A stretch of 64,000 nt of DNA from Methylobacterium aquaticum (GTDB lineage Bacteria; Pseudomonadota; Alphaproteobacteria; Rhizobiales; Beijerinckiaceae), in assembly GCF_016804325.1 (NCBI RefSeq), contig NZ_CP043627.1:2927001-2991000 (forward strand). Reading direction: 5' to 3'. Below, piece by piece: positions 2,242 to 53,336 of this stretch (the first letter of the stretch is position 1; each line of letters starts with the position of its first letter). The notes beneath the pieces are model-generated. The model was not told the DNA's origin. It saw only the letters and a program-made list of their open reading frames with translations, and ran no database searches. The position numbers and the translations under genes were made by a program.

Positions 2242-2379
2242 GTCATTCCGGGGCCGCGAAAGTGGATCCCGGAATCCAGACCCTCGGATGGCTCCGACGC
2301 AGGCTGATCGCGTCCCGCCTCATCCTGAACGTCCTGCGGTTCTGGATCCCGGGCTCCGCTGTCGCGGCCCCGGGATGAC
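2242..2379. repeat. Palindromic intergenic repeat, family A, copy 1
   Basis: An inverted repeat with arms of about 40 bases beginning GTCATTCCGGGGCCGCG and ending with its near complement. Each arm can also fold into its own GC-rich hairpin. It sits between the binding-protein gene and dppB, where it could attenuate read-through and lower permease expression relative to the binding protein. Seven related copies occur elsewhere in the window. Confidence 0.85.
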
Positions 2380-2428
2380 TCGGAGGGTATCAGTCTTGTG
2401 GAGTGAGGCAGACTCGTGCCGACCGGAT

Positions 2429-4024
2429 CTACTTCAGGCTCACGCCGTAGAAGGTGTGGCGGCCGAACGGCGACAGCTTGAAGTCCACCACCTCCTTGCG
2501 GACCGGCTTTAGCTGCACCGCATGCGCGATGGTGAACCACGGCGCCTGCTGCTTGAACACCACCTGCGCCTGCTCGTAGAGCTTGGTGCGCTCGGCCTTG
2601 TCGCTGACGGTCTTGGCCTTGGTGACGAGGTCGTCGTAGGTCTTGTCGCACCACTTGGCGGCGTTGCCGCCGCCCTTCTCCGCCGCGGCGCAGCCGAGCA
2701 GGGTGTGGAGGAAGTTGTCGGGATCGCCGTTGTCGCCGGTCCAGCCGAACATCGCGGTCTGGTGCTCGCCGTCCTGGATGCGCTTGCGGTACTCGCCCCA
2801 CTCGTAGGACTTGATCTCGGCCTTGACCCCGATCTTGGCGAGGTCGGCCTGCATCAGCTCGGCGATGCGGCGGGCATTCGGGTTGTAGGGCCGCTGGACC
2901 GGCATCGCCCACAGGTCCATCGCGAAGCCGTCGCCGAGGCCCGCCTCCGTCAGGAGCTTCTTGGCCGCGGCCGGATCGAAGGGATCGTCCTTCACCGCGT
3001 CGTTGTACGACCACAGGGTCGGCGGGATCGGGTTCTTGGCCGCGACGCCGGTCGAGAGGTAGACCGCGTCGATGATCGCCTTCTTGTCGATCGCCATGTT
3101 CAACGCCTTGCGCACCCGCACGTCGTCGAACGGCTTCTTCTTGGTGTTGTAGGCGAGGTACCCGATGTTGAGGCCGGGCTGCTCGAGCACCTGGACGTTC
3201 GCGTCCTTGCGCATCGCGTCGATGTCGGCCGGGTTCGGGTACGGCATGACGTGGCACTCGCCCTTCTGGAGCTTGGCCCAGCGCACCGACGCATCCGGCG
3301 TGATGGCGAAGACCAGGTCGTCGAGGGCGGCCTTCCCGGCATAGTATTGCGGGAAGGCGCGGTAGCGGACGATCGCGTCCTTCTGGTATTGCAGCAGGTA
3401 GAACGGGCCGGTGCCGATCGGCTCCTGGTCGAGCTTGTCCGGCGTGCCGGCCTTCATCATCGCGTCGGCGTATTCCTTCGACTGGATCGCCGCGAAGGGC
3501 ATCGCGAGATCGGCGAGGAACGGCGCCTCGGGCTGGGTCAGGGTGAAGCGGACCGTGTAATCATCCACCTTGTCGAGCGAGGCGAGGAGCTTGGGCAGCC
3601 CCATATCGTTGAAATAGGTGTGGTTGGAGCTGGTCACCCGGAAGAACGGGTGGCTCTCCTTCCACTGCCGCTCGAACGAGAAGATCACGTCGTCGGCGTT
3701 GAAGTCACGGGTCGGCTTGAAGGCCTTGTTGGAATGCCACTTCACGCCCTTGCGCAAGTGGAAGGTGTAGGTCTTGCCGTCCTCGGACACGTCCCACTTC
3801 TCGGCGAGGTCCGGTACCACGTTGGTGGTGCCGCGCTCGAAATTGACGATGTTGGAGTAGATCTGGGAGCTGGCGTCGAACGAGGTGCCGGTGGTGTTCA
3901 CCGCCGGATAGAAGTTCTCCGGGCTGCCCTCGGAGCAGTAGACCAGCGTCTTGGCGCCGGCCGGCAGGCTTGCCGCCAGGGCGGTCGCGGCACCGAGAAC
4001 CACCGCCAGGGACGCGCGCTTCAT
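2429..4024 (-). CDS. dppA: Dipeptide-type ABC transporter substrate-binding protein (SBP family 5)
   Basis: A 531-residue periplasmic binding protein of the DppA/OppA family. Residues 1-24 are a Sec signal peptide ending in LPAGA-K. The mature part has SBP family 5 features: an early YCSEGSPENFYPA segment, the LAEKWDVSEDGKTYTFHLRKGVKWH signature region, and PIGTGPFYL. The ATG at 4024 was chosen because it opens the signal peptide; the frame remains open further upstream but without one. The Dpp-like YCSEG start suggests dipeptide or haem-type ligands, but specificity is inference. Confidence 0.9.
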   Translation of the reverse strand: MKRASLAVVLGAATALAASLPAGAKTLVYCSEGSPENFYPAVNTTGTSFDASSQIYSNIVNFERGTTNVVPDLAEKWDVSEDGKTYTFHLRKGVKWHSNKAFKPTRDFNADDVIFSFERQWKESHPFFRVTSSNHTYFNDMGLPKLLASLDKVDDYTVRFTLTQPEAPFLADLAMPFAAIQSKEYADAMMKAGTPDKLDQEPIGTGPFYLLQYQKDAIVRYRAFPQYYAGKAALDDLVFAITPDASVRWAKLQKGECHVMPYPNPADIDAMRKDANVQVLEQPGLNIGYLAYNTKKKPFDDVRVRKALNMAIDKKAIIDAVYLSTGVAAKNPIPPTLWSYNDAVKDDPFDPAAAKKLLTEAGLGDGFAMDLWAMPVQRPYNPNARRIAELMQADLAKIGVKAEIKSYEWGEYRKRIQDGEHQTAMFGWTGDNGDPDNFLHTLLGCAAAEKGGGNAAKWCDKTYDDLVTKAKTVSDKAERTKLYEQAQVVFKQQAPWFTIAHAVQLKPVRKEVVDFKLSPFGRHTFYGVSLK

Positions 4025-12204: not shown

Positions 12205-12342
12205 GTCATTCCGGGGCCGCGAAAGCGGAGCCCGGAATCCAGAACCGCAGGATGGTCGGGAGGGAGCGGAACGCTGCCCGTTTCGTCTTGAGCCGACTGA
12301 GTGTCTGGGTTCCGGGCTCGACTCTCGCAGCCCCGGAATGAC
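12205..12342. repeat. Palindromic intergenic repeat, family A, copy 3
   Basis: It opens GTCATTCCGGGGCCGCG and closes with the complement ending CCGGAATGAC. It lies between the convergent FAD hydroxylase and patatin genes. Confidence 0.85.
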
Positions 12343-20346: not shown

Positions 20347-20482
20347 GTCATTCCGGGGCCGCGCAGCGGAGCCCGGAATCCAGAACCGCGGATGGTTCAG
20401 GACAAAGCGTCTCTTGTTCCGCTTCATCTTCCACCACCTGAGTTTCTGGATTCCGGGCTCCGCTGCGCGGCCCCGGAATGAC
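20347..20482. repeat. Palindromic intergenic repeat, family A, copy 4
   Basis: It opens GTCATTCCGGGGCCGCG and closes CCCCGGAATGAC. Unlike most copies it lies upstream of genes on both sides, between the TfoX-domain gene and the ABC importer operon. Confidence 0.85.
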
Positions 20483-32080: not shown

Positions 32081-32135
32081 CGGCCGGAACGGTTGGATCG
32101 GACGGACCGAACTCGAACCCTCCGTCGTCATCAAC

Positions 32136-33116
32136 TCAGTTGGCTTCGGTTGCGAGCGCGATTTTTTGCTCCTCGGCGTAGGCATCGCGCAGGCGTGCGT
32201 TGGCGATGACGAGGAGGCGTCGCATGATGGCGACGATCGCCACGATGGGCTTTTTGCCCGCTGCGATGAGGCGCTGGTAGGTGTCTTTGAGCACGGGGTT
32301 GAAGCGGGTAGCGGTCAGGGCGGGGAGGAACAGAGCCTGCTTGATCTCGGGCCGTCCGCCCTTTGTGCGTCGGTAGCGCTCGGTGGTCCCGCTCTGGTTG
32401 GGATGCGGGGCGAGTCCGGCCAGGGACGTCGCCTGGCGCCGGTCGATACGGCCGAGCTCGGGCATCAGGGCGAGCAGGATGATGGCAGAGGTGTCGCCGA
32501 TGCCCTTGATCGAGGTCAGCGCCTTCTTGGCCCGGCTGAGCGCGGCGGCCTTGCGCAGGGTCTCGGCCATCGCCTCCTCGATCGCCTCGATCTGCTCGGA
32601 CAGGGCGGTGATGAGGGTTTCCAGATAAGCCTGGACGGGTCCAGATCCCGGCGCGGCCAGACGATTGCGGTTGGCGGTGCGCTGAGCCACGAAGTCGGCG
32701 CGGGTGAGCACCAGGCTCTGGAGGTTTTCCTGATCGGGATCAGGGGCTTGCCAGCGGGCCAGGGAGGTGTGGCGCTCCCGGCCGTAAGCCGCCAGGGCCT
32801 TGGCGTCGAGGGCGTCGGTCTTGGCGAGGGTGCCGTAGGAGTGGATGAACGCCTTGACCTTGCGGGCGTCGGCGCGGTGGGCGGGGCATCCGACGGCGAG
32901 GAGAGCGGCCAGCAGAGCATCCTCGTAGCCGCCGGTGGCTTCGCAGATGACGAGGCAGGTCGCATCGAGGTCCGCTTTGGCGGCGAAGGCGGCGAGGTCC
33001 TTGGGCTTGTTGGGGATGGTGTGACGAGCGTTGCCGCGGCTGTCGTGGAGGACGATCTCGGCTTTGCCGACATCGGCTCCGATGAAGCGGGTGGGTGAGG
33101 TGGCGGGTTGGGTCAT
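32136..33116 (-). CDS. IS110-family transposase (DEDD recombinase)
   Basis: A 326-residue recombinase. The N-terminal RuvC-like DEDD domain shows Asp15 (IGADVGK), Glu59 (CEATGG), and Asp101/Asp104 (KTDALDAKAL). The C-terminal Transposase_20 region has the putative nucleophile Ser242 in PNQSGTTERYRRTKGGRPEIKQ. Full length and uninterrupted, so likely functional. IS110 recombinases use a structured RNA made from the element's non-coding end to choose donor and target DNA. Confidence 0.95.
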   Translation of the reverse strand: MTQPATSPTRFIGADVGKAEIVLHDSRGNARHTIPNKPKDLAAFAAKADLDATCLVICEATGGYEDALLAALLAVGCPAHRADARKVKAFIHSYGTLAKTDALDAKALAAYGRERHTSLARWQAPDPDQENLQSLVLTRADFVAQRTANRNRLAAPGSGPVQAYLETLITALSEQIEAIEEAMAETLRKAAALSRAKKALTSIKGIGDTSAIILLALMPELGRIDRRQATSLAGLAPHPNQSGTTERYRRTKGGRPEIKQALFLPALTATRFNPVLKDTYQRLIAAGKKPIVAIVAIMRRLLVIANARLRDAYAEEQKIALATEAN

Positions 33117-33141
33117 CCGGGTCTATCCTGAGGCCGCTTGG

Positions 33142-33339
33142 GATTGTCTGCGGGCGTCGAGGAGAGGCCCAGGCAACTCATCAAGCGTGGCGAGGAATGC
33201 GGACCGGCGAGCCAGATGACGACGGGCGCGAGCCCCATCCCGGGACGCTCGACCGATCCGCGCCCGGTCCGGATGGCCATCCGGACCGGGCATCCCGCCG
33301 AGGCGGAACGGGATCACTCTACAACCGAACCAACAGACA
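33142..33339 (-). ncRNA. Putative IS110 bridge RNA
   Basis: The non-coding end upstream of the transposase, read on the minus strand. From 5' to 3' it holds a strong hairpin (33262-33276 pairs perfectly with 33277-33291), a target loop and a donor loop. In the target loop 33244-33236 gives CCCGGGATG, the same as the left target half. 33225-33215 gives CCGTCGTCATC, complementary to the right target half. In the donor loop 33180-33174 gives TGAGTTG, as in the element's 3' end, and 33150-33142 gives CAGACAATC, complementary to its 5' end. Order and strand polarity match known bridge RNAs. Exact ends are not determined. Confidence 0.8.
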
Positions 33340-33340
33340 A

Positions 33341-33473
33341 TCCCGGGGCTGCGTAGCAGAACCCGGGATCCATGACCGCCAACGAGTCCTGAAAAGGCTG
33401 GCAGCGTCCCGCGTCGTCCTGCATCGTCAACGGTTATGGATCCCGGGTTCCGCTTTCGCGGCCCCGGGATGAT
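33341..33473. repeat. Palindromic intergenic repeat, family A, copy 6 (split by IS110)
   Basis: This is the main part of a family A palindrome, from TCCCGGGGCTGCG to CCCCGGGATGAT. Its first bases (GTCATC) lie at 32127-32132 on the other side of the IS110 element. The arm next to the element has drifted (GCTGCGTAGCAGAAC). Confidence 0.85.
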
Positions 33474-53198: not shown

Positions 53199-53336
53199 GT
53201 CATTCCGGGGCCGCGAAAGCGGAGCCCGGAATCCAGACACTCGGGTGAGACAGGATCAAGCTGAATCGGATCCGCCTTCTTCTGAACTCTCAGCGGTTCC
53301 GGATTCCGGGCTCCGCTTTCGCGGCCCCGGAATGAC
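53199..53336. repeat. Palindromic intergenic repeat, family A, copy 7
   Basis: The best preserved copy of the GTCATTCCGGGGCCGCG type, with complementary closing arm CGCGGCCCCGGAATGAC. It lies between two genes on the same strand; the 53160-53523 gap has no gene. Confidence 0.88.

Follow-up and report, generated by a model that had tools for sequence, protein, structure and literature searches.

The window, i.e. the whole stretch of 64,000 nucleotides of the Methylobacterium aquaticum genome that was analyzed, contains on its minus strand what is, judged from its sequence, a complete insertion sequence of the IS110 family (1.2 kb, IS110 group). The element spans from A 33341 to G 32132 and comprises, together with its target halves, the following features:

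32132–33341, minus strand: IS110-family element, 1210 bp including one AT core, with ends derived from five copies with differing flanks
33341–33340 and 32131–32130, minus strand: first and second AT core
32136–33116, minus strand: transposase/recombinase CDS, an ORF of 326 aa of the DEDD/Ser type
33342–33347, minus strand: left target half CCCGGG, the end of a REP-like palindrome, identical in five of five copies
32127–32129, minus strand: right target half GAC, followed by G in four of five copies, from the five-copy comparison

The transposase contains the Pfam domains PF01548 and PF02371, both exceeding the cut-off, and is similar to the IS621 chain (8wt6, E = 1.4e-24) and to the ISCro4 chain (9t56, E = 1.5e-26), the latter being the best match to a solved structure by sequence. 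The assignment to IS110 made in an earlier note on this DNA is borne out by these domains and similarities. In the sequence alignment, D15, E59, D101, D104 and S242 correspond to D11, E60, D102, D105 and S241 of IS621, which are given as its catalytic residues in the available passages of PMC11208158; the numbering of the PDB chain is that of the paper plus 2, an offset that was read as a tag. The left non-coding end is long, with 225 nt (33341–33117) that begin at the core A and precede the start codon, and the right end is short, with 4 nt from the stop codon to the right-hand core. The AT core is common to both element ends and to all five rebuilt empty sites. The RNA described below sits in the left end, so the element does not show the trait of the IS1111 group, whose RNA is located in the right end. 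A close copy was not found among plasmid records, of which six matched the query, all with a coverage below 80%. A second, distant match to an IS110-type transposase (33% over 127 aa) is present in the same genome (L018, 1501–1887; G000:C1:3856725–3857111).

The search of the element against its own genome resulted in 12 matches, consisting of five full copies and seven others, namely five self-matches of a 30-nt palindrome, an 80-bp right-end fragment (85%) and a 41-bp match (83%). The 80-bp remnant (L006, 1501–1580; G000:C1:2214564–2214643) is probably a decayed older copy. The five full copies are identical except for one base in L004 and L005, and since they are near-identical, the element has probably been mobile recently. 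Empty sites were rebuilt by joining the left and right flanks of each copy and read (C/G)CCCGGG-AT-GAC(C/G) in all five cases. On the right side, ATGAC recurs in five and ATGACG in four of the five copies, and after ATGAC the copies continue with GACGG, CGTCC, GCCGA, GTTGA and GCGGA. Because the five empty sites agree up to this point and the right flanks then diverge, CCCGGG-AT-GAC(G) represents the conserved target; the target predicted in the earlier note was found at five of five insertions of the element in this genome.

One REP-like palindrome, which begins GTCATCC(C/T)GGG, or ATCATCCCGGG at the window's own copy, harbours four of the five copies, each located at its end. The fifth copy, L004, lacks both the palindrome start and GGATCCCGGG in its left 200 bases and nevertheless carries the same 12-mer CCCGGGATGACG as the other copies. 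The genome contains 72 occurrences of this 12-mer (31 + 41; reversed control 0), and CCCGGGATGAC was counted at 131 unoccupied exact sites (reversed control 1). Within the window, the target 11-mer with at most one mismatch was found 19 times versus 3.8 times expected, and 14 of these 19 sites form seven opposed pairs, whose starts are 125–129 bp apart. The target behaves as the end of a REP-like repeat, so named from the repeat pattern alone; this identity is absent from the earlier note. The opposed pairs at 12205–12342, 20347–20482 and 53199–53336 of the window have the variant end CCCGGAATGAC, one base off the target, and constitute a second REP form, which the guide would mismatch.

For the left non-coding end, four short segments in the order and polarity of a bridge RNA had been described, and all of them were confirmed: each occurs once, in this order, on the minus strand within the 225 nt (33341–33117). 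These are CCCGGGATG (33244–33236), which equals the left target half (its CCCGGG being present in five of five copies), CCGTCGTCATC (33225–33215), an 11-base complement of the right target half, TGAGTTG (33180–33174), which equals the 3′ end of the element (32138–32132), and CAGACAATC (33150–33142), a 9-base complement of the 5′ end (33342–33334). In 200,000 mononucleotide shuffles of the non-coding end, they were recovered in 522, 24, 1520 and 18 shuffles, respectively, figures that flatter the segments because their lengths were picked after looking. The 11-base match stood in its ATGAC(G) part, while the remainder was overstated and is partly due to chance: since the five right flanks diverge past ATGAC(G), it holds insertion-specific bases, and its first two bases (33225–33224) belong to the inner target hairpin stem, outside the loop. 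The shared core, previously given as (G)AT, has to be shortened to AT, because relatives with a CTCGCA flank have A in front of AT on the left side and G in front of it on the right side.

The following features were delimited in the left end as parts of the predicted RNA and of its putative promoter:

33316–33321, minus strand: −10-like box TAGAGT, by consensus score only
33262–33291, minus strand: 5′ stem-loop of the RNA, a perfect 30-nt palindrome
33199–33261, minus strand: target-binding stem-loop, composed of outer stem, left target guide (LTG) loop, inner GGG/CCC hairpin and right target guide (RTG) loop
33236–33246, minus strand: left target guide loop GTCCCGGGATG, containing CCCGGG, the AT core and G
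33213–33223, minus strand: right target guide loop GTCGTCATCTG, complementing ATGAC(G)
33136–33186, minus strand: donor-binding stem-loop, with outer stem GCTTG/CAAGC and inner stem GGGC/GCCC
33171–33181, minus strand: left donor guide (LDG) loop ATGAGTTGCCT, a copy of the 3′ end TGAGTTG at 32138–32132
33141–33151, minus strand: right donor guide (RDG) loop GCAGACAATCC, the complement of the 5′ end ATTGTCTG and the preceding G at 33342–33334

The consensus fold was made here from 22 aligned rows and not from a published bridge-RNA model. The alignment contains loci with recognizable ends that were picked by eye (20 of 21 passed a two-mark pattern), and was completed by L035, added by hand, and the window. 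In this consensus, the LTG, RTG, LDG and RDG loops have 11 nt each, and the 22 relatives agree with the placement of the four segments inside the internal loops of two stem-loops; the strong hairpin noted before at 33262–33291 is the perfect palindrome. In total, 87.8% of the cells pair, versus 36–48% with the partners slid, and 14 of the 27 consensus pairs changed on both sides, which was reached by one of 500 shuffles. For the target-binding stem-loop (columns 5–70 of alignment A2), the outer stem shows changes on both sides in 11 of 14 pairs. The donor helices 3 and 4 are paired in 92.7% and 97.7% of the cells and are mostly invariant, so that covariation is hardly informative for them. The fold of the single sequence recovered the target stem-loop and missed the outer stem of the donor stem-loop. 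The search of the element against Rfam resulted in no family at threshold and nine sub-threshold matches, all with E of at least 0.1, and no bridge-RNA match was obtained for the window, whose sole match at gathering level is a suhB/mmgR-family small RNA located elsewhere (RF00519, 54555–54629, plus strand, 69.4 bits).

Relatives were collected in a first search, in which 264 stretches were obtained, 135 of which encode a relative and 80 loci were kept, and in the genomes of the family, where 52 of 199 (own genome counted) had a match. Outside the 22-row alignment are L034, L038, L075 and L079, which are cut or unlike, the first-search loci from L040 on and the family-genome loci after L100. 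The model R1 detected the RNA in 8 of 385 genomes of the class and in 14 of 397 genomes of the order, the own genome being included in both, and its application to 62 sources yielded 61 matches, all of which were aligned.

The 5′ ends of the relatives were placed by the right donor guide alone, and the test of the left target is therefore free of the left guide. Unique ends were obtained for 53 of the 61 rows (eight were dropped, the end being missing or not unique), and 49 rows remained after removing rows with fewer than six flank bases and two re-finds, L129 and L137, which are the training loci L033 and L030 found again. When each combination of genome and guide was represented by one row (36 rows), the left guide matches the flank at 5.31 of six positions (permuted 2.85), 23 rows having six and 31 at least five matches. 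The held-out set of 17 rows reached 4.59 of six (permuted 2.60), with 5 rows at six and 12 at five or more, and one row per distinct left guide (18 rows) resulted in 5.06 of six (permuted 2.70). None of 20,000 permutations reached the observed value in any of the three sets; relatedness and kinship with the training set are ignored in this figure. As the match drops at positions −7 (6/20) and −8 (4/19), the left guide comprises about six bases plus the core. Misfits are L131 (1/6), L134 (3/6), L135 (1/6, fitting one base out of register) and L035 (2 of 4 available bases).

For the right target, a unique 3′ end was found in 36 of 59 rows (23 dropped, end missing or not unique), with copies of one element counted apart. 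At the four positions after the core, 23 of these rows match completely, nine match at three positions and four at two or fewer (L019, L021, L134 and L152). Guide and flank both read ATGAG in L029 and likewise in L138, where the following base mismatches, and in L144, L147, L148, L151, L158 and L165 the two have ATGACA; the counter-case is L150, with the flank ATGACG and the guide ATGACA. The observed agreement was reached in 147 of 20,000 permutations on five distinct right guides. In the M. platani copy (L019, around 2277–3490), the left flank fits and the right flank ACCGGGGGCC misfits its own RTG; the two flanks together form another palindrome.

Because donor matching was also used for placing the ends, the comparison of own with foreign guides is the sole informative one on the donor side. 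The own guide exceeds the foreign mean in 52 of 54 rows for the RDG and in 39 of 44 rows for the LDG (rows not de-duplicated), and L100 shows matched changes in both donor guides and both ends. The relatives follow the pairing rule of bridge RNAs, in which the first loop corresponds to the target and the second to the donor, the 5′ side to the bottom and the 3′ side to the top strand, with the right target being weaker. With a minority of misfits, the target-loop segments change with the flanks and the donor-loop segments track the element ends, as the earlier note had predicted. Its interpretation of an RNA with donor loop, target loop and core, backed by an actual insertion, is supported by the consensus fold, the copies and the relatives.

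In the circular form only, TTG (32134–32132) and ATT (33341–33339) would be joined to TTGATT-17-TAGAGT. Of 29 distinct junctions, 24 have a TTGATT that spans the junction as their best −35 hexamer, followed at 16–18 bases by a −10-like box; compared with the linear end, the junction scores higher in 21 cases, the same in 8 and lower in none. Since the right end terminates in TTG in nearly all cases, this score is weak evidence. The junction promoter predicted from this consensus match agrees with the promoter across the joined ends of IS621 that is described in the available passages of PMC11208160.

Taken together, we consider it highly probable (about 0.93) that this IS110-group element moves by bridge-RNA-guided recombination. 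At the level of sequence, this is supported by the ends, the target, the loops, the guides and the guide/flank covariation, while expression, binding, catalysis and the circular form are expected by homology to IS621. Excision would yield a circle in which the left and the right end meet at the AT core, and the joined ends would constitute the promoter TTGATT-17-TAGAGT for an RNA from the left end with an estimated length of 175–180 nt. The donor loop would pair with the joined ends and the target loop with CCCGGG-AT-GAC(G), and the DEDD/Ser recombinase would swap strands at AT.

The occurrence of four of the five copies at the same palindrome would also be expected if the transposase read the REP hairpin itself, by its structure or by protein-DNA contacts, with the likeness of the RNA being a captured flank or shared GC-rich sequence, and REP-targeting IS elements of other families, e.g. 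IS3 and IS4, are described in the passages available from PMC1525189. This explanation is improbable, however, as L004 keeps the 12-mer and has no palindrome within the 200 bases on its left, guide and flank correspond from position −1 to −6 (weakest at −6, with 14/20) despite the variation of both among the relatives, and the guides occupy constant places in the loops of a structured RNA, away from the element edge. A main function of the left-end RNA in the regulation of transposase expression, with the guide matches being secondary, is very improbable, since regulation would not make loops track the flanking host DNA. The RNA region does extend to just before the start codon, small RNAs of ISPpu9 regulate its transposase according to the opening of the abstract of PMC8450116, and the two roles are mutually compatible.

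In relatives from other hosts, the left guide is re-written to different sequences. The elements of the window and of M. platani share 88% protein identity, that of Methylobacterium platani being the nearest named element, and nest in a clade of 13 (support 99/98). The left guides of the other clade members are CTCGCA (9), CTCGCG (L021) and CTCAGG (L025), each matching its own flank at 6/6. In the tree of 33 proteins, the left guide 5-mer has 14 states and requires at least 17 changes; among the 29 rows for which a flank is available, 15 changes are needed for the guide and 15 for the flank. The deeper forks are weak, with 13 of 30 inner branches open, and independent-pair sign tests were never against covariation, the 2–4 pairs per position on supported branches being too few for significance.

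The counts of CCCGGGATGAC are 131 in the own genome, 62 in M. platani and 35 in G886, whereas CTCGCAATGAC was counted 532 times in the Inquilinus genome of L024, 163 times in G146, 150 times in G673, 19 times in the Novosphingobium genome of L028, and not at all in the window's genome and M. platani. ACAGGAATGAC occurs 36 times in G960, 33 times in G962 and at most twice in the other 13 genomes. In total, the motif of the own element is an abundant repeat in nine of the 12 genomes tested (G721, G931 and G008 were outside this test), and for this reason the left guides appear to be re-aimed at host REPs. Among the 12 genomes, the own motif is not abundant in G961 (ACAGGAATGAC, 2) and G959 (CACGGGATGAC, 1), and G872 contains its own motif CGGAGGATGAC 8 times, with up to 9 occurrences in unrelated genomes and 32 in G931, which has other guides. 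For CCCGGGATGAC, G673 also has an elevated count (32), the two elements found there having a CTCGCA guide, and 11 occurrences each were counted in G008 and G957. Using a degenerate pattern, CTCAGGATGAC accounts for 18 of 36 matches in the genome of L025 and CTCGCGATGAC for at least 18 in that of L021, among the 22 matches listed of 99; the window's genome has the latter form as well (10 of 31 matches), and so does M. platani (10 of 19). In the genome of L029, the CTCAGG form was found in none of three matches. The G886 elements L146, L157, L164 and L167 differ in their donor-guide class (TTGACTTG) and have the CCCGGG left guide of the window; with the 35 CCCGGGATGAC sites of that genome, a convergent target is possible.

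We give even odds to the wider reading that, within one alphaproteobacterial IS110 set, the left guide was repeatedly re-written to the REP of the host and co-diversified with it, with the right half ATGAC being near-fixed. It is made less likely by the motif abundance, which is not one to one, and by the fact that re-targeting is already in print. A record of natural re-targeting is provided by 18 different left guides of six bases and the flanks belonging to them, and the relatives make it testable how targets change and whether a safe harbour in host repeats drives guide evolution. Since the element is complete and present in near-identical copies, with an AT core, a bridge RNA that can be read and a target known from five natural insertions, it immediately offers itself as a candidate programmable recombinase; the apparent re-aiming of its left guide at host repeats is of added interest.

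The bridge-RNA mechanism (2024), its polarity, natural re-targeting and REP targeting have been published, and this element adds a member. Among the titles and abstract openings listed from an open-access library, neither the element nor a set-wide match of IS110 guides with host REPs is described. According to the available passages of PMC11208160 and PMC11208158, the element resembles IS621 in the RuvC-like DEDD and Ser recombinase, the RNA in the left end, the order of 5′ stem-loop, target loop and donor loop, the REP targets and the junction promoter, as well as in the correspondence of the 5′ side of the loops to the bottom strand and of the 3′ side to the top strand (8–9 and 4–7 nt). It differs from IS621 in its core, which is AT here and CT in IS621, in target and REP, and in its distant transposase (1.4e-24); AT cores are reported in the same passages to support recombination by IS621. 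In that work, 5,511 and 2,201 pairs were used to show the covariation of the loops with target and donor, and the legend of Extended Data Fig. 5 lists the target motifs of 16 distinct guides (PMC11208160). The likeness to ISCro4 (PDB 9t56) concerns the transposase sequence only (1.5e-26). A report from 2006 (PMC1525189) describes IS110 elements as targeting REPs, and its table lists insertions in host REPs for ISRm19 (4/4), ISPpu9 (7/7), ISPpu10 (7/7) and ISPa11 (6/6); these elements are REP-inserted like the present one and are likened to it by description, the available passages being without an RNA. The element also shares the RNA-guided choice of target with the seekRNA systems of IS110/IS1111, and the longer non-coding region upstream of tnp with their IS110 type, as far as described in the available passages of PMC11187229. 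There, natural reprogramming was reported in 2024, e.g. for ISEc11 and ISXne4; this example belongs to the IS1111 family, whereas the changes described here occur inside one alphaproteobacterial set of the IS110 group.
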